Counted from the stretch's first letter, positions 1-29,935 are shown. The stretch is DNA of 29,935 nucleotides from a virus (IMGVR_UViG_3300045962_000031:1-29935); one strand, 5' to 3'. Notes: a model not told the origin generated them from the sequence alone. Program-made: numbers and translations.

Positions 1-21
1 TTCCCCATGAGGCGCAAGTAA

Positions 22-50
22 TTGCATTTGTATCGATATACAGGTATACT
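22..50 (+). promoter_or_regulatory. Candidate sigma70-type promoter
   Basis: TTGCAT (22-27) and TATACT (45-50) lie 17 bases apart, close to the consensus. Transcription would begin near 57 and run into the terminator at 76-149 and then the two tiny ORFs at 159-348. The octamer GGTATACT at 43-50 recurs at 562-569, just ahead of the terminase genes. The match is by eye only; such boxes occur by chance in AT-rich DNA. Confidence 0.4.
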
Positions 51-75
51 TATTACTCATGTAGGTGATTGAGAC

Positions 76-149
76 TCCACTGCACACGTGGAACCCCTTT
101 CGCCACTAGTTAGTGACTCCCAGTCATTTTTGTGCAGTGGATTTTTTTT
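76..149 (+). terminator. Intrinsic terminator with long branched loop
   Basis: An 11-bp perfect inverted repeat, TCCACTGCACA (76-86) and TGTGCAGTGGA (131-141), is followed directly by eight T residues (142-149). The 44-base loop contains a smaller CACT/AGTG stem around 103-114, giving a Y-shaped fold. It either ends transcripts entering from the left of the window or terminates a short RNA started at the promoter-like site at 22-50. Confidence 0.7.
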
Positions 150-158
150 GGGATATTT

Positions 159-254
159 ATGACAAAGCCAAAGTGGACTGCTGGGTTTTGGACTACCATA
201 GTAATCATTTTCATAGCTATTGCGATAGCGATGTTCTACATGAAGTATGTTTAA
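159..254 (+). CDS. Tiny single-pass membrane protein (31 aa)
   Basis: The ORF starts at ATG 159 just after the T-run of a terminator. It encodes a short polar N terminus with basic residues (MTKPKW) followed by a continuous hydrophobic stretch of about 20 residues (ending IAIAIAMFY) and a short KYV tail. This is the layout of a single membrane helix. The upstream ribosome site is weak (GGGA at 149-152). It overlaps the next tiny ORF by 8 bases, which suggests translational coupling. The family is not recognised. Phage miniproteins of this shape include holins, antiholins and superinfection-exclusion proteins, but nothing here decides between these. It could also be a chance ORF; two consecutive TM-coding ORFs make that less likely. 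Confidence 0.45.
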   Translation: MTKPKWTAGFWTTIVIIFIAIAIAMFYMKYV

Positions 255-348
255 ATTCAGCTGTTGGTTTTGCATCATTCTGTTATTTTTGTTGATAGGG
301 TTTATAGCTGGCTTCTTTGGGCTTGAGCAGTACTTAGCAGCAGTTTGA
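247..348 (+). CDS. Tiny single-pass membrane protein (33 aa)
   Basis: The ORF begins at ATG 247 inside the end of the preceding tiny ORF and encodes MFKFSCWF followed by a strongly hydrophobic run (IILLFLLIGFIAGFFG) and a short EQYLAAV tail: one predicted membrane helix with a GxxxG-like glycine pattern. There is no good Shine-Dalgarno, so expression would rely on coupling to the upstream ORF. A strong terminator follows 20 bases after its stop, so the pair 159-348 forms a closed unit between two terminators. The family is not recognised; a holin/antiholin-like role is a guess from shape and pairing only. Confidence 0.45.
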   Translation: MFKFSCWFCIILLFLLIGFIAGFFGLEQYLAAV

Positions 349-367
349 CTCCTCCTGGTAGACGTTA

Positions 368-402
368 GGCTTGCCTCTTACTCCAAGGCAAGCCATTTTT
401 TT
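368..402 (+). terminator. Rho-independent terminator
   Basis: A perfect 8-bp stem, GGCTTGCC (368-375) and GGCAAGCC (387-394), has an 11-base loop and is followed by A and seven Ts (396-402). It separates the tiny membrane ORFs from the terminase operon. The stretch 403-540 that follows holds no ORF or obvious structure that I can support. Confidence 0.85.
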
Positions 403-540
403 GCCTAAAATCCGAGTGGTTAGGTCCACAAATCTCCCCAGATTTCACGCTGCGCTTCATGCGTATACGGATAATAACGCGTTAAGTGCTTGTGTTGCAT
501 AGTTTTTTCAGATATTTTTTGCTTATTGTTACTCAGATAA

Positions 541-569
541 TGTACAATGAATAGCGACTATGGTATACT
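541..569 (+). promoter_or_regulatory. Candidate promoter for the packaging/head operon
   Basis: TGTACA (541-546) and TATACT (564-569) are 17 bases apart, and TGG precedes the -10 box, giving an extended -10 pattern. An alternative reading is TTGCTT (519-524) with TACAAT (543-548) at 18 bases. Either would start RNA just before the ribosome site GGAGGT at 575-580. The region lies after a terminator and before a long co-directional gene run, so a promoter is expected here, but which boxes are used is uncertain. Confidence 0.4.
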
Positions 570-589
570 CCGATGGAGGTTAGTCTAAC

Positions 590-1060
590 TTGTTGATTTA
601 TAAGCATATTATGAAAGACGACGCAATTGATCTAACGATAAGAGAGAAGCGAGCGCTACGCAAGGCCGCAGGTTCCCCGTATTCTGTACGCAAGCAGTAC
701 ATCGATAATATGCGCGAATATGTCGCGAGCCAGAATTATGCGGGGAAGATTCAAGGCTATATCACTGAATTGCACGATATAAATCGGGAACTCAAGAAGC
801 ATAATAGCGTTCCTTTCATTGGTCCAGATGGGCTTATTCAGAATGAGAATTATATCGATCTGGATAGCGCAAAAGTTAGAATTGTGGCATTGTCCAAGGC
901 TATCGACTCTAGTCTTAAAATGCTCGACAAAGTTATGCCTAATGTTGTTGCCGCTCCCATAAAGGAGGAAGGGGAAGATACTGACAATGGTTCCTTTGCA
1001 CATGCCTTGCAGGAAGTCGAGCAACGCGTATCTAACGAGCGTAATAAACTGCTTAATTAA
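590..1060 (+). CDS. Probable small terminase subunit
   Basis: This 156-residue, mostly helical, charged protein sits directly upstream of the large terminase, the usual place for the DNA-recognition subunit of the packaging motor. I see no diagnostic motif, so the assignment rests on position, size and predicted helical character. The start chosen is TTG 590 because GGAGGT at 575-580 lies 9 bases upstream; an in-frame ATG at 611 would be 30 bases from that site. The stop codon shares its final A with the ATG of the large terminase (TAATG), so the two are translationally coupled. The N-terminal third is rich in Arg/Lys, fitting a DNA-binding role. It could instead be an unrelated packaging-associated protein. 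Confidence 0.6.
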   Translation: MLIYKHIMKDDAIDLTIREKRALRKAAGSPYSVRKQYIDNMREYVASQNYAGKIQGYITELHDINRELKKHNSVPFIGPDGLIQNENYIDLDSAKVRIVALSKAIDSSLKMLDKVMPNVVAAPIKEEGEDTDNGSFAHALQEVEQRVSNERNKLLN

Positions 1061-2550
1061 TGAGCATTGTTCGCGCCATAGAAAAGGCTAGATTTGATCC
1101 GGGTTGGTTCATCTCTAACGTTTTGCGTATTGTGGCTGATCAATGGCAGCTGGAAATGCTCGAAGCTGCATGTGATGTCGAGCGTAATATGCTGGGCTTG
1201 CCCACAGTTTGCAACCATGATGCGCGTAATAAATTGACGTTTCGCTCGATGCATGGGCCAGGAAAAACCTTCGGCATAGCTCTGCTCGCTCACTGGTGGA
1301 ATTTTACGCGACGCGGTCGTATTGTGGCTACAGCCTGTAAAGAAAAACAGCTAACTTCTCGTTTTTTCCCAGAGTTCTCCAAAGTAGGATCTAATGCTAT
1401 TGCTGCTTATCGTAAATGTTATGATATAGCAGCTTTACGCGTATTGTGGGCGGATGATAGGGATTATTTTCTAGTCGGTGAGACTGCCAGTAGTCCTGAG
1501 TCGTTAGCGGGATATCACCATGACTATTTGTTATTCCTTGTTGAAGAAGCATCGGGTATTCGAGAAGATTTGTACCCTGTGATTGAAGGTGCGATTAGTA
1601 CGGGCGTTATGAATGTTTTAGTCATGATCGGGAATCCTACGCGCAATATCGGCACATTCTATTCTTCCCACAAAAAGCGCGAATTAGCTGATCAGTATTA
1701 CCGTTGTCATGTGTCATTAGACAAAACGACTCGCGTCAATCCTAACTGGGTGGCGCAGATGGAGCGTAAATACGGGAAGAATTCGCCCATCGTAAAGATT
1801 CGCTGTTATGGTGAATTTGCTGATGCAGATCCAGACCAGCTGATTTCGATGGAATGGTTGCAGCGTGCATTTCAGGATGAACGTAAAAGTGATGGTTCTA
1901 TTCCACGATGGAAGATTAGCGTAGACGTTAGTGATGGAGGTGAAGATGAAACAGTCATAACGCTAGCTCAAGAGTTCGATACTTTTATGCTCATGCGGAG
2001 ATGTGTGAGGCGTTCTTATGAAAAAGTTATGGCAACTGTAGAGTGTGAAAACGATGTTTTGGCAGTTCTTGATAATTTTGATATATGTTACGATAGTGTC
2101 GAGTTTATAGTTGATTCGTTAGGTGTAGGTGCAGGCGTTAGAGATAACTTATTGCGTAAGGGGCATAGTGTCGCAGCGTTTAAAGGTGGTGCAGCTTCGT
2201 CCAATAAATTACGTTGGAGAAATAAACGCGTCCAATCTTATTGGTCTCTCCATAACGCCCTGCGCGATGCGCGTATTTCTTATGCTGATGATTTTTTCGA
2301 AAATGAAAACGATCAAGCAGAGTATGAAGCGCAGCTACTTTCTATTCGTGTTAAGCATTCAATTGAAAAGTTAGAAGATTTACAGACGAAGGAAGAAATG
2401 AAACGGGGTGGCATTGCTTCCCCTGACATGGCAGATTCATCTATGATGCTTTTCTCTAACGTGCCAGTTGTTCAGCTTGATGAAGTTGATACATTTGGTG
2501 TAGTTGGTGGAAGTTATACAGATGATTACTATGATATCGCTATAGGCTAA
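1060..2550 (+). CDS. Terminase large subunit (ATPase and nuclease)
   Basis: This is the motor that threads DNA into the prohead and cuts the concatemer. The 496-residue length is typical. The ATPase half shows a Walker A-type loop RSMHGPGKT at residues 62-70 and a hydrophobic strand ending LFLVEEAS near 158-165 as Walker B. Here the usual Asp-Glu pair reads Glu-Glu. The coupling motif follows (MIGNPTRNIGTFY, about 189-201). The RNase H-like nuclease half starts at the acidic strand ISVDVSDGGEDET (287-298), continues with VEFIVDSLGVGAG (347-359), and ends with SPDMADSS near residue 460, giving the expected three acidic clusters. It overlaps the small-subunit gene by one base and is followed after 7 bases by the portal gene. 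Identification is secure; the exact packaging type (cos, pac) cannot be read from the sequence. Confidence 0.95.
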   Translation: MSIVRAIEKARFDPGWFISNVLRIVADQWQLEMLEAACDVERNMLGLPTVCNHDARNKLTFRSMHGPGKTFGIALLAHWWNFTRRGRIVATACKEKQLTSRFFPEFSKVGSNAIAAYRKCYDIAALRVLWADDRDYFLVGETASSPESLAGYHHDYLLFLVEEASGIREDLYPVIEGAISTGVMNVLVMIGNPTRNIGTFYSSHKKRELADQYYRCHVSLDKTTRVNPNWVAQMERKYGKNSPIVKIRCYGEFADADPDQLISMEWLQRAFQDERKSDGSIPRWKISVDVSDGGEDETVITLAQEFDTFMLMRRCVRRSYEKVMATVECENDVLAVLDNFDICYDSVEFIVDSLGVGAGVRDNLLRKGHSVAAFKGGAASSNKLRWRNKRVQSYWSLHNALRDARISYADDFFENENDQAEYEAQLLSIRVKHSIEKLEDLQTKEEMKRGGIASPDMADSSMMLFSNVPVVQLDEVDTFGVVGGSYTDDYYDIAIG

Positions 2551-2557
2551 CGTTTAA

Positions 2558-4966
2558 ATGAGTGATGCACAATTAAAATTAAAAGATATCGCGTGGAGTG
2601 AGAGCATTATATATGGCTCTAACGCGTTTTCTGGGAAGTATAATCCTGATGATTTAGTAGGTAGAAAAGGGTTTGCTATCTACAAGAAAATGCTGTTAGA
2701 CGATCAGGTAAAAGCAGTTGTTTTATTTAAACGCGACGCTATAACGTCTAGGGATTATTTATTTGTTCCCCATGATAACTTATCAGGTGATGAAAACGAT
2801 AGGCGAATTAACGTTTTTAATGAAGCACTTGAACAAATGGATGGAACTTTTTTTAACGCCCTGAATGGTATTATGTCTGCTATGTATAATGGCTTTTCCC
2901 TAACTGAAAAGATATACAGACAATTTACAGTAGACAATAAACTATATTGGGGTATCCAAGCTTTAAAAATACGCCCCTTTGATACTTTTAAATTTAAAGT
3001 CGATGAGTATGGAAATATTGAAGCGTTAATACAAGAATTTAATAATAAGACGCAGAAGCTTGATATTAGAGATTTTATTTACTTAGTCAATAGGCCAGAT
3101 GTTGACGATCATTACGGGCAATCTGAGTTGCGCGAAGCGTATCGTGATTGGTTTAGTAAAGACATAGCAATTAAATTTAGAAATATTTGGTTAGAAAAAC
3201 ATGCTACTGGATATCGTTGGGTAGAGCCTGCTGCTGATACGGATAAAAAGTTGCGTGTAGGTTCAGCGGAGTATAACGCTATCGTTGACATGCTTAACTC
3301 AAAAACTGCTGGTAGTGGTTTTATTCTTCCCTCTGGATATACTTTAAAGTTTACCTTCCCATCTAATAACGTTGCATTTGATGATGCGATTTCGAGTGCT
3401 AACATGGGAATTTCGCGTTGTTTATTAGTCCCTAATTTGCTTGGGATATCTGAACAGGGTAAATATGGATCTAGGGCGTTAGGTGTAGAGCAATTAGACG
3501 CTTTTTTCTGGACGTTAGATACAATCGCTAATAATTTATCCTCTGCGCTCAATACGCAGTTATTTGAAGAGTTAGGCGACGCTAACTGGGGCGATGGTGA
3601 GTACCCAAGGTTTACATTTAAGCCCGTTAGTGAAAAAAGAAAAATGGAGATTGTCGAAAAATGGATGCAATTAGTCGAAAAGGGAACTGTTAGGGCGACA
3701 AATAGAGATGAGGATCATTTAAGGGAACTCCTTGAATTTCCGCAAAAGCATGAGGAAGGTGAAGATAATAGTTCAATCGATTCGTTAGATGCGCAACAAA
3801 TATCCGCTTTAGTGGACATAACGTCCAAAATAAAAAGCAAGCAGTTAGACAAAGGAACTGCGATTCTAGTTATATTGCATACTTTGCCATTGAATAGAGA
3901 AGAAGCAGAGGAATTAGTTAATTCGATAAAGGTCGATGTGAATGTTGCTGGGGATAATAACGATAATAATAACGGTGGTGATAGTGCTGGGGATAATCCT
4001 TCTAACGTGGGTGATAATGATCCTCAGCCTGTTGTTCCCAAAGTGGAAGATGAAACGATTGTTGGGAGATCGACAAAGACAATAGTAGCTTCCCCAGGTG
4101 CTTACACGCGTGCATTAAAGCGAGTTGCCTTTGCCGTTATAGCTCAGAATACGGATGATATTATCGCACTAAATGTAATGCGATTGTCTTCTGTTATCGA
4201 TCAAGGGGTTAAGGCGATCTTTGAAAATATTGAAGATTTAAATAGCGTAGACGTTAGCAAGGTAACTTTTCCTGGGCGCATTAAAACAAAGCTTAGATCG
4301 ATTTGTAGAAAGTTTTTAGATCGCGGGTGGAACCTGGGCATCAGACATGCACAGGATGAAATCGATAAATCAAGGGGGCAAAGATTCACGCGCATTGATT
4401 TCGAAGTGTTAGGTGATCAAGCGGAAAAATTGCTGGCTGGCAGATCTTACAGCATGGCAGGTAAATTATCGGATGATACAGCTGATATCATAAAGAATGC
4501 CATTCTGCAAGGTTTTAAGGCAGGTAAAAGCGTTGATCAGGTGTTAAAAGATATTTATCAAATGCTTATGGCCAAGGGTTTAGTAAGCCCTGAAGCTGCC
4601 GCTGAAATAGTTCCCGACATAGAGATTGTTGCTAGTGCCCCCCATAGGTTAAAGACGTTAGTTAGAACTGGCCTATTTGAAGCAGTTAATTCTGCACGTT
4701 ATGAATATTTTAATGATCCAGAATTAGGCGACTATGTTTCTGCATTAGAATTTAGTGCAATATTAGATTCAAGAACTACCCCTATCTGTGAAGCACTTGA
4801 TGGTGAAATTTACCATAAAGGACATGATTATTGGGAATCTAACGAAATGGTACCACCGCTGCATTATAATTGCCGTTCACTTTTAATCGCTGTGACTGAA
4901 AGAGATGACTGGGAGGAATCAGAGCCAATTTCGCCTGATCTCAAGCCACAAGAAGGCTTTAGATAA
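2558..4966 (+). CDS. Portal protein fused to MuF-type head protein
   Basis: At 802 residues this is much longer than an ordinary portal. Residues about 1-450 look like the DUF935 (Mu gp29-type) portal family: the N-terminal helical region with YKKMLLDDQVKAVV, then the core with LREAYRDWFSKD and LLGISEQGKYGSR. A low-complexity Asn/Asp/Gly linker occupies about 462-495. The C-terminal part, with LDSRTTPICEALDG and PPLHYNCRSLL at about 740-780, carries the signature of the Mu gpF/SPP1 gp7 minor head protein family. In Mu these are two separate genes (29 and 30), so this is a natural fusion of the DNA-entry portal with the head-morphogenesis protein. It starts at ATG 2558 without a strong ribosome site, 7 bases after the terminase stop. 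Confidence 0.9.
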   Translation: MSDAQLKLKDIAWSESIIYGSNAFSGKYNPDDLVGRKGFAIYKKMLLDDQVKAVVLFKRDAITSRDYLFVPHDNLSGDENDRRINVFNEALEQMDGTFFNALNGIMSAMYNGFSLTEKIYRQFTVDNKLYWGIQALKIRPFDTFKFKVDEYGNIEALIQEFNNKTQKLDIRDFIYLVNRPDVDDHYGQSELREAYRDWFSKDIAIKFRNIWLEKHATGYRWVEPAADTDKKLRVGSAEYNAIVDMLNSKTAGSGFILPSGYTLKFTFPSNNVAFDDAISSANMGISRCLLVPNLLGISEQGKYGSRALGVEQLDAFFWTLDTIANNLSSALNTQLFEELGDANWGDGEYPRFTFKPVSEKRKMEIVEKWMQLVEKGTVRATNRDEDHLRELLEFPQKHEEGEDNSSIDSLDAQQISALVDITSKIKSKQLDKGTAILVILHTLPLNREEAEELVNSIKVDVNVAGDNNDNNNGGDSAGDNPSNVGDNDPQPVVPKVEDETIVGRSTKTIVASPGAYTRALKRVAFAVIAQNTDDIIALNVMRLSSVIDQGVKAIFENIEDLNSVDVSKVTFPGRIKTKLRSICRKFLDRGWNLGIRHAQDEIDKSRGQRFTRIDFEVLGDQAEKLLAGRSYSMAGKLSDDTADIIKNAILQGFKAGKSVDQVLKDIYQMLMAKGLVSPEAAAEIVPDIEIVASAPHRLKTLVRTGLFEAVNSARYEYFNDPELGDYVSALEFSAILDSRTTPICEALDGEIYHKGHDYWESNEMVPPLHYNCRSLLIAVTERDDWEESEPISPDLKPQEGFR

Positions 4967-4975
4967 ATAGTCAAA

Positions 4976-5197
4976 ATGAATAAGTTAAGCTTAGCAGATG
5001 TTCAATTGATTCGAATAGAATATGCTAGCGGCAAACATTCATGTAGGACATTAGCTAAAAAATATGGTGTATGTAAAACGCACATCGCCTATGTGCTCAA
5101 TAGTAAGAGATGGAAGCGTGTACCTATACCTTATTGGTTAGAGTTACAAATACAGCACGTTAAGGAAAGGAACATAAAATTTTTTAGAACTGCGTAG
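4976..5197 (+). CDS. Small helix-turn-helix protein (homing-endonuclease-type module)
   Basis: The 73-residue protein is almost entirely one DNA-binding module: a helix LADVQLIRIEYASGKHS, a helix LAKKYGV, and a recognition helix region ending YVLNSKRWKRVPI. This pattern (IR..Y..G..S...LA..YGV...I..VL....W..V) is known from C-terminal helix-turn-helix segments of phage HNH and GIY-YIG homing endonucleases, but no nuclease domain is present in this gene or its neighbours. It is the first of three consecutive genes with this module. A DNA-binding regulator, or the residue of an invading homing element, are both possible. Confidence 0.7.
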   Translation: MNKLSLADVQLIRIEYASGKHSCRTLAKKYGVCKTHIAYVLNSKRWKRVPIPYWLELQIQHVKERNIKFFRTA

Positions 5198-5211
5198 TTT
5201 GGGGAGGTATT

Positions 5212-5610
5212 ATGTACGACTATTATGATATTAGGGAACGTCAAAGAGTATACGAAAAATTAAATGAAGAAAAAGTAATAGACATTCGATATAGATATGC
5301 GCAAGGTGACATATCCTGCAAACAGTTAGGGAAGCAATATGGTTGTAGTTCTAAGCATATTTGGGAGATTCTAAGAGGATTAGAATATAGACATTTGCCC
5401 ATTTCTGCTAAGTTGCAAGAAAAAATTATGTTGCGACTTGAGGAAAATAGATACAATTCAAATCGAAAGTTAGACATTGATGATGTTAAGTGGATTCGTA
5501 AAGTTTATCAAACAGGTTCTTTAAAAGTTCAACAGTTAGCTGATATTTTTGGTGTGACGCGATCAGCTATCTATCATATAATATCTGGTCGCACGTGGAA
5601 AAATATATGA
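5212..5610 (+). CDS. Tandem double helix-turn-helix protein
   Basis: The 132 residues carry two copies of the same module as the upstream gene: residues about 18-64 (KVIDIRYRYAQGD through LGKQYGC to ILRGLEYRHLPI) and about 84-131 (DVKWIRKVYQTGS through LADIFGV to IISGRTWKNI). The start ATG 5212 has a good ribosome site (GGGGAGG at about 5200-5206). The two modules are diverged from each other, so this is not a very recent duplication. A tandem array would let one chain read a longer or repeated DNA target. There is no catalytic domain. The stop overlaps the next gene's start (ATGA at 5607). Confidence 0.7.
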   Translation: MYDYYDIRERQRVYEKLNEEKVIDIRYRYAQGDISCKQLGKQYGCSSKHIWEILRGLEYRHLPISAKLQEKIMLRLEENRYNSNRKLDIDDVKWIRKVYQTGSLKVQQLADIFGVTRSAIYHIISGRTWKNI

Positions 5611-5780
5611 GCCGAACTATAGAAAAATTGACGCGCTGTGAAATACAGTCTATATGGAAAGATTTTCAATCTGGCACTTCATATCGAAAGTTAGTTGAAC
5701 AGTATGACATCACACTATACACTGCTAGAAAGGTAATTTCAGAGCAGATGAAATGGAGGTACAATGGAGTACCAAAATAA
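5607..5780 (+). CDS. Third small helix-turn-helix protein
   Basis: The ORF can be opened at GTG 5595, but ATG 5607 is preferred because it overlaps the upstream stop in an ATGA junction, a sign of coupled translation. The 57-residue product holds one diverged copy of the module: LTRCEIQSIWKDFQSGTS, then LVEQYDI, then a second helix ending MKWRYNGV. It is less well conserved than the other three copies (the IR and YGV positions have changed), so it may be decaying or specialised. Confidence 0.6.
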   Translation: MSRTIEKLTRCEIQSIWKDFQSGTSYRKLVEQYDITLYTARKVISEQMKWRYNGVPK

Positions 5781-6116
5781 ATGGTTTCGCATAGCTGTAT
5801 CATTGTTAATATTTTCGTAATTCATAAGAATTATTTAGTCGACTTTGGCTGGTGGAGTTCTTGCACACCACAAGAAATTCCCGATGCAATACGTAAGGCG
5901 ATAAGTACATTTAATCATTATTTAATAGATGATACTAACGAGAAGGTTAGAGCAACGCGCAAGGAAATTTTCGATAAAATGCTAGACGTATTCGACGAAA
6001 TTGCTAACGAGGAAGATGAGAATTTAGCTATGGGATACCCTAAGCTTGGGGTTAAGGGGCGGATAGCTTTAGAAACTGTTGAAGAAACTAATGCTTATAT
6101 GGTCCTAACAAAATGA
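5781..6116 (+). CDS. Hypothetical protein between portal and protease
   Basis: The family is not recognised. The 111-residue ORF opens at ATG 5781, but no ribosome site lies at a good distance. The nearest strong site (GGAGGT 5755-5760) sits instead just before ATG 5764 in another frame, which reads 18 codons (ending RIAVSLLIFS) and stops. The credible part of the 111-residue protein begins around WWSSCTPQEIPDAIRKAI and is helical and acidic in the middle (IFDKMLDVFDEIANEEDEN). The end overlaps the protease gene as ATGA, fixing the 3' end and frame. Either the first 25 or so codons are not translated as drawn, or the reading frame has been disturbed near 5800-5820. Confidence 0.5.
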   Translation: MVSHSCIIVNIFVIHKNYLVDFGWWSSCTPQEIPDAIRKAISTFNHYLIDDTNEKVRATRKEIFDKMLDVFDEIANEEDENLAMGYPKLGVKGRIALETVEETNAYMVLTK

Positions 6117-7129
6117 ATACTATTATTCAGGAAATATTTGCCACTGGAAAATGGAATGGTTTCTCTTTTACGCTTAACGATTTGCGTAAAATGGCAACGT
6201 CTTTCCATTCTTTAAAGAATGTTTTACAGGTTCCTCTGAAATTTGGACATAACAAAGACCAGCCCATGACAGATGGGGCACCTGCTATAGGGTGGGTTTC
6301 TGATGTTTTTGTCAAGGACACTAAGTTAGTTGCTGAGTTCAGTGACATCCCTGATATTGTCTATAATGCTATGGAGAAGAAGCTTTATAGAAATGTATCT
6401 ATAGAGTTAGATTTTGATGTAGAGTATAAGAATTCTTTTTACGACTTTGTTTTAACAGGCGTTGCTTTGCTGGGTTCATCTTTACCAGCCGTTAACGTTC
6501 TGAATGATCTGACTAAATACATGACTAGCGATCGTTTTCATGCATTTTCTAAAAAAGAAAATGCTGATTATTACGTCGCTTATAGTCATAAATCTTTTAC
6601 TATGAATGGTGATAATATGAGTGAAGATAATACAAAAGCTGAGCTAGAAATTTTGAAGGCTAAGTTGAAAGCTGAATCTGAAAAGTTTGCTGCTGAGCGA
6701 AAAAATTGGGAAGTAGCTGAGGCGAAGCGTAAAGAAGATGCCGCTAACGCGAAGTTTACCAGTGACAAAGCAAACCTAGAGAAAACACTAGAAAATTTGA
6801 TTGCGGAAAAGAAGATTTTCCCAAATCAGAGGGAAGGCATTCTAAAAGATCTAACAAGGGATAACATTGAGCAACGTCTCTTCACTGTGGGTATTCTAAA
6901 GGATAGCCCTGCCGTTAGTGATTTGAGTAAGGATAAGCAATTTTCGCGCGGATCTGGAACAACTTCTAAGCAAGAAGAAGGTAGGCCAGACGATATCCTG
7001 TTGCAAAAAATAGCAGCAGCAAGGCTGGCTAATCCTGGCATGACGTTCACTAATGCGAAGCATATGGTATATAGTGCTAACCCTGATCTTGCATCGCGCT
7101 ATTTGAGAATGGATGGTATGATAGATTAG
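6113..7129 (+). CDS. Prohead protease with C-terminal scaffold
   Basis: The first 150 or so residues resemble the Mu gpI-type prohead protease: VPLKFGHNKDQP with His46, APAIGWVSDV at 57-66, and LYRNVSIELD with Ser96 as likely nucleophile, in the His-Ser arrangement of the capsid-maturation serine proteases. Residues about 170-250 form a long charged coiled coil (AELEILKAKLKAESEKF onward), typical of the internal scaffold. In Mu and lambda the scaffold is also made separately from an internal start; here in-frame ATGs at 6602 and 6617 follow weak sites and would give about 170-175 residues. The gene overlaps its upstream neighbour by 4 bases and precedes the decoration and capsid genes, as expected for head assembly. 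Confidence 0.85.
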   Translation: MNTIIQEIFATGKWNGFSFTLNDLRKMATSFHSLKNVLQVPLKFGHNKDQPMTDGAPAIGWVSDVFVKDTKLVAEFSDIPDIVYNAMEKKLYRNVSIELDFDVEYKNSFYDFVLTGVALLGSSLPAVNVLNDLTKYMTSDRFHAFSKKENADYYVAYSHKSFTMNGDNMSEDNTKAELEILKAKLKAESEKFAAERKNWEVAEAKRKEDAANAKFTSDKANLEKTLENLIAEKKIFPNQREGILKDLTRDNIEQRLFTVGILKDSPAVSDLSKDKQFSRGSGTTSKQEEGRPDDILLQKIAAARLANPGMTFTNAKHMVYSANPDLASRYLRMDGMID

Positions 7130-7161: not shown

Positions 7162-7512
7162 ATGAGCTATAATGAAACTATTAGTGTACGCGCTGGTGCT
7201 GATTTGCGTGCTAAACAATATTTTGCTGTCGAGATTGATGGAACTCTTTCAGGTGCACCGTTAGTGACAGCAGGAATTCTAGCGAATAAGCCAAATAATG
7301 GTGAAGATGCGACTATTGTTTATGCGGGTAGATCGAAGTTCAGAGCAGGTGGTACTGTTACTGCGGGGGGTTTGCTGACAGTGAATAGCACTGGTTATTT
7401 TACAGCGGCCTCAAGCACTAATCAGGTTGTCGGTAAATGCGAGATCGCTGCTAACTCTGGAAGTATAACGCACGGAATTTTTAATTTTGCTAATGCTGGT
7501 TACTACGCATAA
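7162..7512 (+). CDS. Head decoration/capsid-stabilising protein
   Basis: The 116-residue, glycine- and alanine-rich beta protein sits between protease/scaffold and major capsid genes. It resembles the DUF2190-type small capsid proteins: an N-terminal segment ISVRAGADLRAKQYFAVEID, a central GRSKFRAGGTVTAGGLLTV and a C-terminal VVGKCEIAANSGSI. Such proteins bind the mature capsid lattice and stabilise it. Ribosome site AGAGGT precedes ATG 7162. Function is inferred from position and overall similarity. Confidence 0.75.
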   Translation: MSYNETISVRAGADLRAKQYFAVEIDGTLSGAPLVTAGILANKPNNGEDATIVYAGRSKFRAGGTVTAGGLLTVNSTGYFTAASSTNQVVGKCEIAANSGSITHGIFNFANAGYYA

Positions 7513-7544: not shown

Positions 7545-8498
7545 ATGGGTAGTGTAAGCGGTCATAATGACTTGCATGTAGATAAATTGATCAGTCAAAT
7601 GTGCTTGGATTATAAACCTGAAGGGTTTATTGCCGACCAGATAATGCCAATTGTTTCCGTTGCAAAACAGGCAGATTTCTATTCTGATTTTTCGCGTGCA
7701 GACAAGTTGCGTGTAGAGGATACGAAAAGAAGCCCTGATACTGAGGCAAGAAGGATTGAGATTAGCGTAGGTAGTGGTACGTTTTTCTGTACTAACTACG
7801 CACTTCAAGCGCCCGTCACTCTTGAGGATACTGCTAACGCTGATGAAATTTTCATAGATAAAATTATCAATGGCCGAGTTGAACTCGTCATGGATAAATT
7901 ACTTCTGGATTGGGAATTACGCGTAGCGACTCAGGTTTTAAATACGTCTAACGTAGGTTCTTCCAGTGCTGTATCTTCCGCATGGAATGGCGCGGGTGCA
8001 CCATTGAGCGATCTGAACACCGCAATTGATAATGTGCGCTTTAGTAATGGTGTTAGACCTAATCATATGGTTTTTGGTCTTGAGGCATGGCTATCTTTTC
8101 GTAGAGATTCCACCGTTAGAAATTTGATTTTTGGAACTAACAATGGTGGTGGTTATCCGTCTACTTCTCAAGTGTCGGAGCTTCTAGAAATTGATAACGT
8201 GTTGATTGGTGGAGCGTTTAGAAACACAGGTCAAGAAGGGCAGTCAGAATCGCTATCAACTATTTGGGGTGATAAAGTTCTAACGTATTACGCCCCCGAA
8301 AGTCCAAATAAGGAAAGACCTTCGTTTGCTTATTCCTTTCGTTGGTCAAAACCTGGGCTGCCTAATTTCATAGCTGAGCGTCATCCGTTTAATACACTCA
8401 GGAAATCGTCTAGCATTGAAGTAGGCTATTATCAGGATGAAGTTATAACGGGAGCCACGTATGGTTTTCTTTTAGATGCTGTTAATAGCTCTACATAA
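7545..8498 (+). CDS. Major capsid protein
   Basis: The 317-residue protein starts at ATG 7545 after the site AGAGGAT. The N-terminal arm (FIADQIMPIVSVAKQADFYSDF) and later segments (RPNHMVFGLEAWLSFRRD, WGDKVLTYYAPE, FRWSKPGLPNFIAERHPFN, and the ending YGFLLDAVNSS) match the HK97-fold capsid proteins found next to Mu-like portals. There is no long scaffold-like delta domain, consistent with scaffold being supplied by the upstream protease/scaffold gene. A large inverted repeat follows directly after the stop, which may limit read-through into the next genes. Confidence 0.9.
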   Translation: MGSVSGHNDLHVDKLISQMCLDYKPEGFIADQIMPIVSVAKQADFYSDFSRADKLRVEDTKRSPDTEARRIEISVGSGTFFCTNYALQAPVTLEDTANADEIFIDKIINGRVELVMDKLLLDWELRVATQVLNTSNVGSSSAVSSAWNGAGAPLSDLNTAIDNVRFSNGVRPNHMVFGLEAWLSFRRDSTVRNLIFGTNNGGGYPSTSQVSELLEIDNVLIGGAFRNTGQEGQSESLSTIWGDKVLTYYAPESPNKERPSFAYSFRWSKPGLPNFIAERHPFNTLRKSSSIEVGYYQDEVITGATYGFLLDAVNSST

Positions 8499-8607: not shown

Positions 8608-8660
8608 AACGCTTGCTTGGTGCGCTTGCTATCCTCCCCTAGTGGGCGTGCTAACGCAAA

Positions 8661-18825: not shown

Positions 18826-19019
18826 GAGGTGTGACGTTATCAGATTGGGTTATACTTTTCTTAGATTCTCATACGTCCACGATGATGGGATTACTATTTA
18901 ACGGCTGGCCTGATGGGCAATGTTTATTCGAGCAAGATGCACTGTTGGTCGAGATTTTCAGGGTTATACACGGGCAATTCATAGCCCAAAGCAACCTAGA
19001 GGCGTCATCACATGGCTAA
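18409..19019 (+). CDS. Tail assembly chaperone, frameshifted long form (gpGT analogue)
   Basis: A -1 shift at A AAA AAG (18765-18771) moves ribosomes into the frame that runs without a stop to 19019, giving about 203 residues: 121 from the first frame and 82 from the second. The appended part continues VARRAAAG, then TLSDWVILFLDSHTSTMM and ends LEASSHG. Gram-negative siphoviruses commonly make such a G/GT pair: the G part coats the tape measure and the T part recruits tail tube subunits. The second ORF lacks an independent start: the GTG at 18831 lies immediately against a GGAGGT, which is too close. The tape measure gene begins 8 bases before its stop. Confidence 0.85.
18748..18771 (+). promoter_or_regulatory. 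-1 ribosomal frameshift signal with Shine-Dalgarno-like enhancer
   Basis: The heptamer A AAA AAG at 18765-18771 is in the correct phase (TTA AAA AAG in the 0 frame). AAGGAGGT at 18748-18755 lies 9 bases upstream, inside codons. This is the same layout as the E. coli dnaX frameshift site, where an internal Shine-Dalgarno stimulates slipping on the same heptamer. I see no strong downstream hairpin by eye. Confidence 0.85.
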
Positions 19020-21695: not shown

Positions 21696-21696
21696 C

Positions 21697-24468
21697 ATGG
21701 GTACAACTTATTGGCCTAAAGACGATTTAACAGGCAATACCTCCATACGCTTTGCCCCCATGACGTTATTAGGCGTAGGTGGAACTCCTAACGCTACAGA
21801 TGTATTAAATGGTTGGAATACTTGGTATGAGCCGCATTATCGCGGATGGATCAATCCCAATATAGGTGAGAAAAGCGGTTTCATGTTACACGTTGTTGGC
21901 CCTAGTCTATTCACTGATGATGTTAGGCCAAGCGATGCAACCGACCCTAACGATAGTGGTTATGATTGGTCCAAATTTGACGCGATTATGAATTTGAATA
22001 TTCTGACGCGCGATGAGGTGGTAATGGGGTGGCTGTGGCGTTTAGAGACTTCATCAGGATCGTTGTACCCTAACTGGTGGCCTGAAGATTGGTCTTACGC
22101 GCCACCTAATGAAACACGTAAGGTGCCTGATTGGAGTAATCCTGCGGTTCTGCAATTTATGAAGGACTTAATGACAGCAATCGGTGCTAAATATAACGAC
22201 AATACTAATATGTATTTTTGGGGTTTTTCTGAGCAGAATGGGGTACCACAAGAACAAAACGCACAGCAAGAAGAATTCATACGCCATGGTATCGAGCAGC
22301 TTAGCAAATGCATGTGCCTTGTCATGCAGTCCCCTGATGTATACATTCGTGTAAATGATGATATCCACGTTGGAAAAATCTTTTCTGGGCCTAACGCTTT
22401 TCGTGCAGGATGCGGTAGCGATAATTTTCCTACGTATGATTGCGGAGATCCTAACGCGGGGTATATTCAACAATTTAATTCGATGATCCCTAACCCTCCG
22501 GGTGGAAGGCGTAGGGTATCCGCACTGTCACAAGAATCGAATGAGTTTCGCATTATAACAAGTACACATACCCCTATTGATTCCCCATGGGGTGCAGACA
22601 CTTTATTCCCCCTAGATTCTGAACGTTTTATTAATTCAAATATCTCCCCTGCTGTAGTCGTATGGTATTGCAGTTACAAACCCAGAGCGAGCGGGGCTGC
22701 GGCTAACGCTGGACTTGGGTGGGATGGTGGCGCAGATCCAGCGGGAGTAGTGCCTTGCAACATTCTGGTACATGGAACATTAGGGCTTAGAATGACGGGT
22801 ATCGAGTCGAAAGAGTATGATCGGGCTTATCGACTTTTCGGCGCTAATGGCACGCGTGCGGCGCTCTACCCTCCCGTGGGCTTTTCAGCGGGGGGCGCAC
22901 CTCCCGCAGCACTGCCATATATTTCTGATGCTGGTGATGAGTCGTACTATGATGGGGAGACAGGTGTAGATATTGATGGAGGTAATTTTGAGGCTACGCA
23001 GGGTACAGGATGGGTTAGAATCTACGGAAACAATACAGGAACGGGTAGCTATGCGACTCAGACTGTTACAGCCTGGGCAGACGATCAGATTACTATAACA
23101 ATCGATCAAGGAAGCTTGAACGATGGAGCTAATTATCTTTTCGTGCATAACGATTCAGATGATACTAGCGGGTCATACCAGATCTTTTTTCAGAGTACTT
23201 CAGCACAGCCCATTATTCAAAATTTATCCGATAACTCTGTGGCTAATGGGCAGACTAATGTAATTGTTTCAGGTACAAATTTTAATGCTTCTCAAAATAA
23301 CGGCTTTGTCGAAATCAATTCAACATCTGATGGATCTGGTATATCGGCAATACAGACGATTTCTAACTGGTCTGATACGACCATTACCTTTAACGTTAAT
23401 GCTGGGGGCCTTACCCTTGGTGCTAGCTATTATCTTTTTGTTCATGATTCAAGCAATAACTTGAGCAATGGAGTATCGATATTTTTAGAGGATACTGTTA
23501 TCCCCACGGGTCCAATTATTACAGGCGTTAGTGATGGGGATATCTACCATCAAGAAAATAATGTTACTATTGATGGATCTGGTTTTGGTATAAGAGGTAA
23601 TGCATTTGTAACGTTAAACTCTGCATCTGATGGGTCGGGTACATCTGCTACACAGGAAATTCTGAATTGGTCGGATACGCAAATCGGAATAAACGTTAAT
23701 ATAGGGGGTATTCCAGATTCAACTAACGCTTATATGCTAGTGACAACAAATGCAGGTATTCAATCTAACGGTTATCCAGTATTAGTGCGTGCTAATATTG
23801 GTCCTGATATTTTCATTTCAAGTGTTTCACCTACCAATGTTTACGATGGTTTGTTACCTGTAGATATTGAGGGGACGGGTTTTGGAGTTTATATTTCTGG
23901 TAGCTCTAGAATTGAATGCACGCCACGAGGAAATTTTTCTATCGTTCAAGCCCAATCGCTGTTTCAAACTAGCTGGACGGATTCTTTCATACGTATAACA
24001 TTCGTTAGAGGAAATTTAGTTGCGGGTGATATTGATATATACGTTATTAATTCTAGTGGGTATCGTTCTGCTGCTTACCCATTAACGTTAATCACACAAA
24101 CTGGTACACCAATAATAACTCAAATTACTACACTAGGATTGCATCACGATGAGGTTAACGTTCCTGTTTATGGTGCTAACTTCAATGCTCAAACGTCTGC
24201 TAGTGAAGTGATAATCTGGCAAGATAAAGCGAAAACAAAAGGAGCTGTACAACCGATAACTTCGTGGGGTGATACTGTTATTGTCTTTACAGTTAGTCTA
24301 TTAGATTTAGTTTTTGAAACGCGTACAGGGTATCTAACGGTTACAAATTCTGAAGGTTTAACAAGTGAATTATTCACAGTGCAAATTGAAGGTGAAGATT
24401 TTGAATCTTTTATCATAGATAATGCTGATCTGGGGTACGTAGATACAGCAGGATTTTCTAATGTCTGA
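21697..24468 (+). CDS. Receptor-binding candidate: glycoside-hydrolase-like domain plus five IPT/TIG domains
   Basis: The 923-residue protein has an N-terminal 400-residue domain rich in Trp/Asp/Glu that looks like a (beta/alpha)8 glycoside hydrolase: VVMGWLWRLETSSG near 107-120, NMYFWGFSEQNGVP near 169-182 with a Glu at the position where clan A enzymes carry the acid/base residue, and SALSQESNEF near 277-286. It is followed by five Ig-like IPT/TIG repeats of about 100 residues each, starting near residues 409, 507, 608, 707 and 807 (e.g. ITGVSDGDIYHQENNVTIDG, strands ending SWSDT.I.F.V). The layout suggests a tail-tip enzyme that digests or binds host polysaccharide on a rigid Ig stalk. Which sugar is unknown. 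Confidence 0.7.
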   Translation: MGTTYWPKDDLTGNTSIRFAPMTLLGVGGTPNATDVLNGWNTWYEPHYRGWINPNIGEKSGFMLHVVGPSLFTDDVRPSDATDPNDSGYDWSKFDAIMNLNILTRDEVVMGWLWRLETSSGSLYPNWWPEDWSYAPPNETRKVPDWSNPAVLQFMKDLMTAIGAKYNDNTNMYFWGFSEQNGVPQEQNAQQEEFIRHGIEQLSKCMCLVMQSPDVYIRVNDDIHVGKIFSGPNAFRAGCGSDNFPTYDCGDPNAGYIQQFNSMIPNPPGGRRRVSALSQESNEFRIITSTHTPIDSPWGADTLFPLDSERFINSNISPAVVVWYCSYKPRASGAAANAGLGWDGGADPAGVVPCNILVHGTLGLRMTGIESKEYDRAYRLFGANGTRAALYPPVGFSAGGAPPAALPYISDAGDESYYDGETGVDIDGGNFEATQGTGWVRIYGNNTGTGSYATQTVTAWADDQITITIDQGSLNDGANYLFVHNDSDDTSGSYQIFFQSTSAQPIIQNLSDNSVANGQTNVIVSGTNFNASQNNGFVEINSTSDGSGISAIQTISNWSDTTITFNVNAGGLTLGASYYLFVHDSSNNLSNGVSIFLEDTVIPTGPIITGVSDGDIYHQENNVTIDGSGFGIRGNAFVTLNSASDGSGTSATQEILNWSDTQIGINVNIGGIPDSTNAYMLVTTNAGIQSNGYPVLVRANIGPDIFISSVSPTNVYDGLLPVDIEGTGFGVYISGSSRIECTPRGNFSIVQAQSLFQTSWTDSFIRITFVRGNLVAGDIDIYVINSSGYRSAAYPLTLITQTGTPIITQITTLGLHHDEVNVPVYGANFNAQTSASEVIIWQDKAKTKGAVQPITSWGDTVIVFTVSLLDLVFETRTGYLTVTNSEGLTSELFTVQIEGEDFESFIIDNADLGYVDTAGFSNV

Positions 24469-27022
24469 TATAACGTTAACAAACACTAGCTATAATGGCG
24501 CATCGCCTAGTCTATCGTGGTCCCACAATATCGGTGTTAGCGATGATTATTTAATTGTTGGAATCTATTTAGAAGATGCAACTAATACAATAGATGGGTG
24601 CACTGTTGATGGGACCGCTCTATCGTTAGGAATAGGCGCAAAAAATTCTGCCCTGGCATCAGCTATTTATTACACTACTTCGGCTAATTTACCTGCCCCT
24701 GGTAACGCTACTATTGTTATCAGCACCGCTGAACATGCAGCAGGGGTGGTTGCTAACGCTATATCTGGGTATTCATTCGCGCAACAAGGACCACAAGCTA
24801 CAGCAGTTGGTTCTGTGGCAGGATCAACTACGGTAAAAACATCATTAACGACTAGCGTAAATGGCACTTTAATTTTCGATGCTGTTTGTGCTGCATATAT
24901 GAATGCAGAATTCTCTGTTGATTCAGGTCAAACGTTAGACTTTGATTTGGATAATCGCTCAGGATTATCCGCAGGAATGTCGCATGAAGAAACTATTAGT
25001 GCTGGTGTTAGTTCCCTTGGGTGGACTTCCACGTTATCGCATACGCATTTGGTTCAAGTGGCAGCATCATTTGAGCCAGCAGAAGCGGGAGGAGGAGCGC
25101 CTGTCTCATCCGTTAGTCGTGAAATACCCTTTCCGATTTATGGTACGACCATTGATGATATTTCTAACCTAAGTGATATAGTTACAGCGTTAGACGATCT
25201 AACGTATATGCCAGTTACGAGAATTGTTTTCGATGAGGATCAAGATCCTTCCGTTTATAACAATGCTGTTAATGATATTGGTAGCGTTAGTTTTATAATG
25301 GGTGAGCTACTTGATTCTTCTGCTGTATTCTCGTATAGCGTGAGCGATTACAGTGCACGCGTTAGCAGTTATATTGCGTATTTTGGAGATCGTATTGATA
25401 TATACGAAGTCGCTAACGAGATAAATGGGGAATGGTTAGGGTCTGAATCTGATTCTGTGGCGAAAATGATTGATGCTTACGATCAGGTGAAGGACGCAGG
25501 GTATCGTGCAGCAGTTACATTTTATTATAACGAAGACTGTGAAACGTATGCCTGGGAAGAAATGTGGACTTGGATTAATGCTAACGTCCCCTCGCGTATG
25601 TTTCAAAATTTAGATTATTGTTTGCTGAGTTGGTGGCCTGCTGATTGCAACGATTTAGAAAAAACAGAAGCAGAATGGGGTACTGTATTTTCTACGTTAT
25701 CGAATTTATTTCCTAACTCTAAGGTAGGTTTTTCAGAAGTCGGTACAGAAGGGAATGACACGCAACGCGCTGAAGTAATGGAGGAATATTATGAATTGTC
25801 TATCAATCTAAACGCTTACATAGGCGGATATTTTTATTGGTACTGGAAGGATGATTGTGTTCCAAAAACAGAGCCGTTATGGACAACATTCGAGAATATT
25901 ATAAGTGCGTTACCTGCCCCGACGTTAGATGCAGATCCGCCTGCAAGTGGATCTGGGGAAATAACGTACGATAGCGATGGAGAAAGCGGGAACGCTAACA
26001 TCACGACACTATCGATTCCTAGCATTACCGTTTCCACAGAATCAGATAGACTTTTTGTCGTGCAATTAGGCTTAGAAGATAAATCTGCTACAGGGTTAGT
26101 TGTTTCCTCAATGCTTTTTGATGGTGTAGCGGGTACATTAGCAGTAAGTCAATCTGAATCTACTAGCGATGAAATCAAAGCATTAATTTACTACTGGTTA
26201 GATGCTAGCCTGCCTGCCTCTGGTACTGCGTCGTTAGCAGTGACTATGAGCGCAGAAGTTCGTACAATTAGTATGAACTATACGTTTGTCTATGGTGTGA
26301 AGCAACAAGCCCCAGAAGCTACGGGTGCAGCCAGCGCAACAGGAACATCTGTTGATCCTTCCCTAACGACTTTAACAGATAATGCATTTGTATTTTCTAG
26401 TGTAGTTACGTCTACGGGTACACCTAATCTATCCCCCGGTGCATCTCAAACTGAACGTTTTGAGTATTCTGGTGCAAGTACACATGCGGGTGGCGATAAA
26501 GAAGTAGCAACTTCGGGAGCGACTTCTAACGCTTGGACAGCAAGCAGTTCAGATAACTTGGCAGCTGTGAGCGCAGCTTGGGCACCAACCCCCATAGCGT
26601 CTAGTGAGGATAACTATTACGGTACATCTGCCCGTGTAGCAGCAGGTGATTCTTCTGGGGATAAGGCGACATTTACTTTTACTGTTAGCCGATCGATCGC
26701 TAAAGTCGATATTTTTTCGCAATGGCCTACGGGTAATTATGCTACAGATACCCCTTACACCATAACAATGCCTGATAGCAGTACAACAACTTATGACGTT
26801 GATCAGTCAACACGTGGTGGTCAAGTTAATTATATAGGGGGCGTAAATGGGCGTTTTAACCCTGGCGTTATTACTGTTAATATTGGTGATGACGCTAACG
26901 GAAACGTTGTAGCGGATATGGTTCGACTTGAGGTAACGTACGCAACACCACCTAAAAGTGACCTTGAGTTGATTGATTCAATTTCCCCTGAACGTCAATA
27001 TATGCGTAGGCTTGTGGACTAA
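24461..27022 (+). CDS. Tail fibre/depolymerase candidate: beta-sandwich, GH-A-like barrel, golvesin-like domain
   Basis: The 853-residue protein overlaps the previous gene by 8 bases. Domains: a beta-sandwich (about 1-210), a clan GH-A-like barrel (about 217-477) with IDIYEVANEINGEW near 312-325 (Asn-Glu acid/base) and KVGFSEVGTEG near 422-432 (candidate nucleophile), and a second beta-sandwich (about 497-713) that resembles the first (SP.ASQTERF/SVDSGQTLDF; AAVSAAWAP/VQVAASFEP). A golvesin-C-like carbohydrate-binding domain follows (about 713-830, with RVAAGDSSGDKATFTFTV and NVVADMVRLEV). The short C terminus contains LELIDSISPER, like one repeat of the fibre gene at 13775. Two catalytic Glu candidates make real hydrolase activity plausible. 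Confidence 0.75.
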   Translation: MSDITLTNTSYNGASPSLSWSHNIGVSDDYLIVGIYLEDATNTIDGCTVDGTALSLGIGAKNSALASAIYYTTSANLPAPGNATIVISTAEHAAGVVANAISGYSFAQQGPQATAVGSVAGSTTVKTSLTTSVNGTLIFDAVCAAYMNAEFSVDSGQTLDFDLDNRSGLSAGMSHEETISAGVSSLGWTSTLSHTHLVQVAASFEPAEAGGGAPVSSVSREIPFPIYGTTIDDISNLSDIVTALDDLTYMPVTRIVFDEDQDPSVYNNAVNDIGSVSFIMGELLDSSAVFSYSVSDYSARVSSYIAYFGDRIDIYEVANEINGEWLGSESDSVAKMIDAYDQVKDAGYRAAVTFYYNEDCETYAWEEMWTWINANVPSRMFQNLDYCLLSWWPADCNDLEKTEAEWGTVFSTLSNLFPNSKVGFSEVGTEGNDTQRAEVMEEYYELSINLNAYIGGYFYWYWKDDCVPKTEPLWTTFENIISALPAPTLDADPPASGSGEITYDSDGESGNANITTLSIPSITVSTESDRLFVVQLGLEDKSATGLVVSSMLFDGVAGTLAVSQSESTSDEIKALIYYWLDASLPASGTASLAVTMSAEVRTISMNYTFVYGVKQQAPEATGAASATGTSVDPSLTTLTDNAFVFSSVVTSTGTPNLSPGASQTERFEYSGASTHAGGDKEVATSGATSNAWTASSSDNLAAVSAAWAPTPIASSEDNYYGTSARVAAGDSSGDKATFTFTVSRSIAKVDIFSQWPTGNYATDTPYTITMPDSSTTTYDVDQSTRGGQVNYIGGVNGRFNPGVITVNIGDDANGNVVADMVRLEVTYATPPKSDLELIDSISPERQYMRRLVD

Positions 27023-28908: not shown

Positions 28909-29099
28909 TATTAAAAATTGTAACGTGTGACATATGCGGAGAATCTTATCGCGAGTTAAAATATGGAGAAGGTTTTCCTGGGTGGGGGCAGTTACATGGT
29001 ATTGCGTTAGATGGTGTTCCAGATCCTTACTTTTGCCCGGAGCATTTAGCTGAAATTTCTGATTTTGTCTGCCAATTGAAGGAGAATAAAAATGGCTGA
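28905..29099 (+). CDS. Zinc-finger-like miniprotein
   Basis: The 64-residue protein has four metal-ligand candidates in the arrangement C8-x2-C11 (CDIC) and C44-x2-H47 (CPEH), as in small treble-clef or zinc-ribbon proteins. The rest (GEGFPGWGQLHGIAL) is short and polar. It overlaps both flanking tail genes, so it is made together with the hub and the tip protein. Function unknown; a structural or host-RNA-polymerase-type role cannot be told from sequence. Confidence 0.65.
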   Translation: MILKIVTCDICGESYRELKYGEGFPGWGQLHGIALDGVPDPYFCPEHLAEISDFVCQLKENKNG

Positions 29100-29526
29100 T
29101 TGGACACCTAACATTCAATTCCCCCTGGGTTCTATCCTAACGTCCGCAAAGATGGATCAACTAAGAGATAACATCGAAGCGTTAGCATCTGATGCTGATG
29201 GTGCGCCCGTCATAGTAAGTGATGCGTTAGAAGATTACCCATGGGGTTATGAGGATATCAGGGTTGGTTCCCTAATACGCAACAGGTTATCCGCATCTAC
29301 TAATAGCACATCTGGCTCGTTATCCGCAAGTGGGACTGTTGATATAACGCTACCCCCCTATTGCTTTTATGTTGCTGTGGGAACTACGGGCGGGATTGGT
29401 GGACCTATTTATATCGCTGCTGGTACTGGCACGCCTAACGTAGATGCGCCTAAAATTAAATTAGTCAATGCAAGTGCAGATAATTCAGTTAACTACCAAG
29501 TTAAGTGGCGATATCTCAATGCATAA
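29092..29526 (+). CDS. Tail-tip/fibre-associated protein
   Basis: The 144-residue protein begins WTPNIQFPLGSILTSAKMDQ then LRDNIEALASDADGAP, a start very common in short phage tail fibre or tail-tip proteins ('W.......LT...L..N...L..'), followed by beta-strand-rich sequence (SGSLSASGTVDITLPPYCFYV, then YQVKWRYLNA). GGAG precedes ATG 29092 within the preceding gene. It is the last rightward gene; a 52-bp palindromic element follows. Confidence 0.7.
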   Translation: MADWTPNIQFPLGSILTSAKMDQLRDNIEALASDADGAPVIVSDALEDYPWGYEDIRVGSLIRNRLSASTNSTSGSLSASGTVDITLPPYCFYVAVGTTGGIGGPIYIAAGTGTPNVDAPKIKLVNASADNSVNYQVKWRYLNA

Positions 29527-29530
29527 AGCA

Positions 29531-29582
29531 TAGCGCATCACATGTGACGCATCACATGTGACGCATCACATGTGACGCGCTA
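29531..29582. repeat. 52-bp palindromic element with three tandem 14-bp units
   Basis: The unit CGCATCACATGTGA occurs three times in tandem (29534-29547, 29548-29561, 29562-29575). Each contains the perfect 10-bp palindrome TCACATGTGA. The flanks TAGCGC (29531-29536) and GCGCTA (29577-29582) are inverse complements, so the whole element is a near-perfect palindrome broken only by A/C mismatches. It lies between two convergent genes. No T-run follows on either strand, so it is not a classical terminator. Confidence 0.95.
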
Positions 29583-29599
29583 GATTCCGAGCTAAAAAA

Positions 29600-29833
29600 T
29601 TAGGCCGCTTCTGCCTCATCCTGGGCGTTAGGCTCATCTGTTGCAGTCAAGTCTTCAAGTTCCTCCCCGCTTTCCAAAAACTTAATCACCTCATCAGTAC
29701 TGGCACGCCCATAATCATAACGCGATTGCAGAATAGACATGATATGCTGTCGCACTTGGGTCGTGTTGTTAGCCTTGACGATAGTGGTTTCGTTATCTAG
29801 AGTAACGTTATAGTAATGTACTGAGTTAGACAT
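29600..29833 (-). CDS. Small conserved-type phage protein on the opposite strand
   Basis: Leftward gene; ATG at 29833 is preferred over GTG 29845 because GGGAGG (complement of 29838-29843) lies just upstream. The 77-residue product starts with a beta segment (HYYNVTLDNETTIVKAN), continues with a helix (QVRQHIMSILQSRYDYGRAS) and a 'TDEVIKFLESGEELED' segment, and ends in an acidic tail. The combination of a short beta lead, a helix and an A-T/S-x-D/E-E-V/L pattern resembles a small hypothetical protein seen in many proteobacterial phages, of unknown function. It is transcribed from its own promoter at the right edge, so it may be an early gene. Confidence 0.65.
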   Translation of the reverse strand: MSNSVHYYNVTLDNETTIVKANNTTQVRQHIMSILQSRYDYGRASTDEVIKFLESGEELEDLTATDEPNAQDEAEAA

Positions 29834-29863
29834 ATAGCCTCCCACATTGTTAAAGTTAGGTTG

Positions 29864-29887
29864 AACTGGGAGTTTAACCTCCCAGTT
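29864..29887 (-). promoter_or_regulatory. Hairpin at the 5' end of the leftward transcript
   Basis: AACTGGGAG (29864-29872) and CTCCCAGTT (29879-29887) form a perfect 9-bp inverted repeat with a 6-base loop. The predicted transcription start (about 29886) falls at its edge, so the RNA would begin with this hairpin. It could protect the mRNA 5' end or, as DNA, serve as a repressor operator. Confidence 0.7.
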
Positions 29888-29892
29888 ATTAA

Positions 29893-29921
29893 ATTATACT
29901 AAAAACTAACTAACGTGTAAA
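29893..29921 (-). promoter_or_regulatory. Consensus-like sigma70 promoter, leftward
   Basis: On the - strand, TTTACA (29916-29921) and TATAAT (29893-29898) are separated by exactly 17 bases; five of six and six of six bases match the consensus. It points to the leftward gene at 29600-29833. The spacer contains a copy of CGTTAG. Confidence 0.85.
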
Positions 29922-29935
29922 GCGTATATACGCAT

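Follow-up and report, generated by a model that had tools for sequence, protein, structure and literature searches.

The window analysed here, a viral contig of 29,935 bases from IMG/VR (recorded as linear; positions 1-29935), probably carries a dense and evenly spread set of putative binding sites of one sequence-specific DNA-binding protein. One half of the site is the hexamer CTAACG/CGTTAG, which ranks first among the over-represented hexamers of the window: 50 CTAACG and 71 CGTTAG were counted, i.e., 121 hexamers against 12.8 expected from base composition (9.4-fold). A preliminary description of the sequence had given the same 50 and 71 copies, about nine-fold over about 13 expected, and its count is exact. 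Whether in genes or in the gaps between them, the hexamer or the longer element described below recurs at intervals of about 120 to 250 bases, with copies on both strands, and the 50/71 orientation bias is not significant (p 0.07). A literature search on CTAACG and CGTTAG gave nothing relevant. The window has a coding share of 94% and carries a tailed-phage virion module with the following genes.

1060-2550, large terminase
2558-4966, portal
6113-7129, protease
7162-7512, scaffold
7545-8498, major capsid
8843-11830, 995-aa protein with two glycosyltransferase domains
16433-16960, neck protein
19012-21345, tape measure

The 995-aa protein with two glycosyltransferase domains is found directly after the major capsid gene throughout the phage family (8843-11830 in the window and more than 140 related loci), and a weak SAM-methyltransferase match lies between its two glycosyltransferase domains.

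We examined whether the hexamer excess can be accounted for by codon usage, amino-acid pairs or internal repeats. Such an origin has some appeal in a window that is almost entirely coding, and motif-capable peptides are in weak excess (V[SR] 108 vs 84). However, a synonymous-codon shuffle that preserves every protein and the overall codon usage gave 17.8 ± 4.2 hexamers in coding DNA against the 111 present (z 22), and the window has few internal repeats. The preliminary description had noted several reading frames, and four are indeed populated (CTA ACG 13; xCT AAC Gxx 34; xCG TTA Gxx 43; xxC GTT AGx 23); only these four are possible because the remaining two frames are stops. All four stop-free frames are enriched (7.3-, 5.1-, 6.0-, and 9.4-fold), and in the two commonest frames 34/62 and 41/78 of the motif-capable peptide positions carry the motif. 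Elements are equally dense outside genes (8.2 per kb in non-coding DNA vs 8.4 per kb in coding DNA). We concluded that the hexamer excess is real and is not driven by codons: codon usage, amino-acid pairs and repeats are refuted as its source, and the chance that they produced it is negligible. The signal thus resides in the DNA itself, irrespective of strand and of coding status, as the preliminary description had argued. The copies that it quoted outside genes and inside stop codons are all real, and its promoter-spacer copy lies in the 17-bp spacer of a minus-strand sigma-70-like promoter (TTTACA-17-TATAAT). The copies outside genes are as follows.

363-368, minus strand, non-coding hexamer
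8651-8656, plus strand, non-coding hexamer, the sole site of the aligned region in common with the nearest relative (L001, see below)
12528-12533, minus strand, non-coding hexamer
12854-12859, minus strand, non-coding hexamer
29626-29631, minus strand, hexamer outside the annotated plus-strand genes
29910-29915, plus strand, hexamer in the spacer of the sigma-70-like promoter (promoter on the minus strand)

The stop codons at 2548, 13783 and 19017 are the TAA of the following copies.

2547-2552, plus strand, hexamer whose TAA is the large terminase stop codon
13782-13787, plus strand, hexamer whose TAA is the stop of ORF 13348-13785
19016-19021, plus strand, hexamer whose TAA is the stop of ORF 18831-19019

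Markov models of orders 1 to 4 expect 12.6, 19.8, 49.9, and 105.9 hexamers. The order-4 value comes near the ∼120 (order 3-4) that the preliminary description had named as refuting its observation, but this test is circular because the hexamer itself makes up about half of the CTAAC and TAACG 5-mers. Once the motif copies are masked before training, the order-4 model expects 31.9, and the excess withstands the check.

The full element is longer than the hexamer: it reads CTAACG-N7-T-R-N4-G, spans 20 bases and is asymmetric. With the C of CTAACG numbered as position 0, the two outer bases have independent effects on the enrichment of a TAAC core (C0 ∼2-fold, G5 ∼2.5-fold, both together 6-fold). 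The core interior is strict; most interior changes remove the excess, and most interior one-base neighbours are not raised. The extension came from a scan of all offsets from -40 to +44 (∼85 offsets): T at +13 (0.57 vs 0.36 in the codon null, chi2 62) and G at +19 (0.31 vs 0.17, chi2 50), with weaker downstream preferences over the codon null at 7, 14, 16, 20, and 21. By our reading of the frames, in the commonest ones the strongest downstream preferences coincide with wobble positions, at which the sequence can vary. The second contact is about one helical turn 3′ of the core and is weaker than the core. The TAAC core with one outer base plus T13, R14 and G19 is enriched 8.0-fold, the hexamer without any of T13, R14 or G19 3.4-fold, and the maximum is near 10-fold. 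The contacts are thus interchangeable and saturating, which fits protein affinity and not mutation context. The hexamer that the preliminary description took as the unit is therefore real but incomplete, the unit being the bipartite element of about 20 bases. The hexamer array and the full matches (9/9) to the element are listed here.

1-29935, both strands, hexamer array, 121 exact copies and ∼250 elements by the extended matrix
1032-1051, plus strand, full 9/9 match to CTAACG-N7-T-R-N4-G
1115-1134, plus strand, full 9/9 match
2456-2475, plus strand, full 9/9 match
2619-2638, plus strand, full 9/9 match
12344-12363, minus strand, full 9/9 match
22703-22722, plus strand, full 9/9 match
23512-23531, minus strand, full 9/9 match
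26895-26914, plus strand, full 9/9 match
29211-29230, minus strand, full 9/9 match

The extended matrix, which was trained on the excess, scores 250 elements in the window (110 and 140 on the two strands), an absolute number that is optimistic because the matrix was trained on the same window. The spacing of the elements is more even than chance: the coefficient of variation (CV) is 0.76 vs 0.97 (95% range 0.86-1.12) in shuffled genomes, and gaps of 20 bases or less number 14 vs 33 in the shuffles. The shuffled genomes were scored with the same matrix, so that training on the window is controlled for. For the hexamer alone the evenness of spacing is not significant, and no helical-phase preference was seen in the site spacing. 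There is no fixed plus/minus pairing of copies, and the sites sit inside phage genes; integron attC arrays differ in this respect, as attC sites are paired inverse core/core sites flanking gene cassettes.

These features also bear on a neighbour-dependent mutation bias, one of the causes that the preliminary description had proposed, and on the mere base composition of the host's lineage as a source of the word. The effects of the outer C and G on TAAC do look multiplicative, and the window's own order-4 Markov model expects 106 hexamers. Against this, an effect of adjacent bases cannot yield preferences 13 and 19 bases away, nor can it account for the shortage of gaps under 20 bases; one-base neighbours in the core interior are mostly not elevated, and about 150 related phages lack the signal. 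We consider such an origin quite improbable. The primase site of the preliminary description is likewise hard to square with a second contact 13-19 bases downstream. A protein that reads the element would fit better, and the element would then be maintained because bound sites are selected for, or through some process under the protein's direction. Under this proposal the site would be asymmetric and bipartite, its core being contacted strongly and a second position, roughly a helical turn further downstream, more weakly; new copies would arise by point mutation wherever the proteins permit, and they would be maintained as a density and not as fixed positions.

To place the element among related phages, we used capsid, terminase and glycosyltransferase searches, which gave more than 200 related-phage loci, some of which come from overlapping parts of a single contig; the portal and fibre proteins as single queries gave no match. 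The nearest relative, L001 (capsid 80% identical), is the only one with a window-like density on both strands: it has 25 hexamers in 4.8 kb, and its coding DNA contains 21 CTAACG vs 3.1 expected. The extension recurs in L001, with G19 at 0.56 vs 0.24 ± 0.09 in the codon null and T13 at 0.53 vs 0.35 ± 0.10, the latter ∼1.8 sd above the codon null (z 4.4 vs base composition). Among the 182 loci with enough sites, the combined extension score reaches 16.5 in the window and 10.9 in L001, and the other loci lie at -0.6 ± 1.5. The word is not general in the wider phage family: of several hundred virus fragments examined L001 is the only other one to show it, and the signature is absent from ∼150 other relatives. 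In the region that aligns between the window and L001 (69% identity) there are 10 and 14 hexamers, respectively, and only one position is common to both (the non-coding copy at 8651). The density has been kept and the individual sites have not.

A few other apparent carriers were set aside. L003 and L012 showed mild enrichment at first but lack the extension, and other IMG/VR contigs that matched a dense-CTAACG pattern were codon-repeat artefacts on one strand. The IMG/VR pattern scans recovered L001, and no further contig of the window's kind was found among the matches listed. IMG/VR contigs with clustered CTAACGTTAG palindromes also lack the extension. Such clusters were seen in L126, L343 (9205-14368), and L350 (8354-12792), in groups ∼600-700 bases apart; they are a different phenomenon from the window, which has no CTAACGTTAG. 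Integron arrays were considered for L126 and found unsupported.

A very dense over-represented word is also known from cyanobacteria. HIP1 words are dense and linked to orphan methyltransferases, and Elhai has proposed a repair process in which mutations that create the site are favoured (PMC4390886). By analogy, the element could be a methyltransferase site that is favoured by methylation-directed mismatch repair, so that sites accumulate as in a ratchet. However, HIP1 is an 8-base palindrome of bacterial genomes, whereas the window element is asymmetric and bipartite and the CTAACGTTAG palindrome is absent from the window. The element has a core that is strict inside and loose outside, with extra contacts 13 and 19 bases off, and no DNA methyltransferase was identified among the annotated genes of the window; the sole methyltransferase domain found is the weak SAM-methyltransferase match in the glycosyltransferase protein. 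We regard the methylation-linked ratchet as improbable.

If one protein reads the element, a candidate is found in the phage itself. Between the portal and protease genes both the window and L001 carry a run of small helix-turn-helix genes; the window interval contains the following genes.

4976-5197, plus strand, 73-aa helix-turn-helix protein, with a homologue in L001 and none in the other relatives searched
5212-5610, plus strand, 132-aa protein in which a long helix connects two helix-turn-helix domains, candidate reader of the element
5595-5780, plus strand, 61-aa Mor-like helix-turn-helix protein, member of the cassette
5781-6116, plus strand, 111-aa protein, function not assigned, 56% identical in L001 and absent from other relatives

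The counterpart cassette in L001 consists of three helix-turn-helix genes at 2-930. A helix-turn-helix profile, searched against 30,000 open stretches taken from the window and from related phages, matched only the cassette genes and gave one weak match elsewhere, in a contig without the motif. For the 5212-5610 protein AlphaFold predicts two domains of three helices each with a long helix between them (mean pLDDT 81), and Foldseek found no significant structural match to this two-domain model. Two domains set one helical turn apart would suit a bipartite site. There is a precedent in a mycobacteriophage repressor, a two-domain monomer that acts on asymmetric sites spread over the phage's genome (PMC9283540). 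No full hexamer lies in the window cassette, which falls inside the largest gap between hexamers (4839-5935); imperfect copies of the element are present there, and the L001 cassette has five hexamers. The helix-turn-helix cassette at 4976-5780, above all the 5212-5610 protein, is put forward tentatively as the leading candidate for the binder of the element. The cassette and the motif occur together only in two mutually nearest relatives, so that shared descent alone could explain their co-occurrence.

The interval between portal and protease (4967-6112) is hypervariable and takes up insertions: some relatives have none there and others up to 5 kb, and its larger genes in 20 relatives include radical-SAM and hydrolase matches. 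Two 20-mers within the cassette, 5454-5473 and 5675-5694, are 90% identical to each other, and each is an imperfect minus-strand copy of the element. The 5781-6116 protein was at one point taken for an HNH nuclease; its L001 counterpart lies at 909-1235, and the HNH-like gene is a separate gene of L001.

The stoperators of cluster A mycobacteriophages (L5, TipsytheTRex) resemble the window sites in that many asymmetric sites are distributed over a phage genome. They are read by a monomer whose two DNA-binding domains, connected by a helix, contact successive major grooves (PMC9283540); a possible counterpart encoded in the window is the predicted two-helix-turn-helix protein at 5212-5610. Stoperators, however, number ∼26 per genome and are 13 bp long, compared with more than 120 sites of ∼20 bp in the window; they are found at promoters and in short intergenic spaces and for the most part face the same way with respect to transcription, whereas the window sites are mostly in genes and in both orientations (50 vs 71). 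A phage-encoded packaging or silencing protein, the two-helix-turn-helix monomer, might use sites genome-wide at about every 120 bases as a sequence-encoded phage chromatin, in which the density persists although individual sites are gained and lost. We offer this more specific role as a speculation that is rather unlikely to be correct as it stands.

The element might alternatively be a recognition word of the host, present throughout the host chromosome as the uptake signal is in Haemophilus and adopted by the phage, for example through a long-resident prophage subject to biased uptake and recombination. Among known words the Haemophilus uptake signal is the nearest pattern in form. Its strong core is followed on the 3′ side, at one and at two helical turns, by weaker contacts; it has no orientation bias, its spacing is more regular than random, it originates by point mutation, and near matches are over-represented in a graded way (PMC1626085, PMC1939737). 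These traits recur in the window element, with T13 and G19 as the 3′ contacts, no orientation bias (p 0.07), even spacing (CV 0.76 vs 0.97), a point-mutation origin, and a graded excess of near matches. The likeness to the Pasteurellaceae signal ends at several points: its core is AAGTGCGGT or ACAAGCGGT, no part of which is among the top words of the window; the window core has 6 bases and not 9; and the 3′ contacts in the window are single bases and not AT-rich tracts. Known uptake words occur at ∼1 per kb and the window element at 4-8 per kb, a 4- to 8-fold higher density, and uptake words favour non-coding DNA whereas the window element does not (8.2 vs 8.4 per kb). We know of no phages with so dense an uptake word. 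The Neisseria DNA uptake sequence is likewise over-represented in both orientations, but it has a 10-base core of another sequence, no flanking contacts, and a density of ∼1 per kb.

Unlike an uptake word, the element comes from a phage, and the bacterial genomes examined all lack it. A major capsid scan of GTDB genomes yielded one genome-borne relative, an Acidiferrobacterales metagenome-assembled genome (MAG) with no motif enrichment. CTAACG reached at most ∼0.6 per kb in 398 genomes of its phylum, none of 369 genomes from its class (partly overlapping the 398) was enriched, and five of these genomes, sampled directly, showed no strong excess and no extension. The host-derived word of the preliminary description thus found no carrier among these candidate genomes. 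A host-wide word is the main alternative, though less likely than not; the phage cassette is ranked slightly ahead of it as the source of the reader.

If a single protein reads the element, there would be strong pressure on the phage genome for as many sites as its proteins allow, and the site density would exceed that of known uptake words. Such a system would offer a handle on the origin and upkeep of genome-wide words, with the force, the reader and the turnover available in one small genome and its nearest relative, and the element could be used to flag the host or further similar phages from sequence alone.

Some further observations were made in the window. Four hexamers, CTGCAG, CAGGAG, GATGGC, and AAGAGC, are absent from its coding DNA, against 9-10 of each expected by codon shuffle, possibly due to avoidance of restriction sites or ribosome sites. 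At 29533-29580, three tandem copies of GCATCACATGTGAC form a long hairpin that was flagged as terminator-like. The tape-measure gene contains a perfect 65-base direct repeat at 20920-21056, with 72 bases from start to start.
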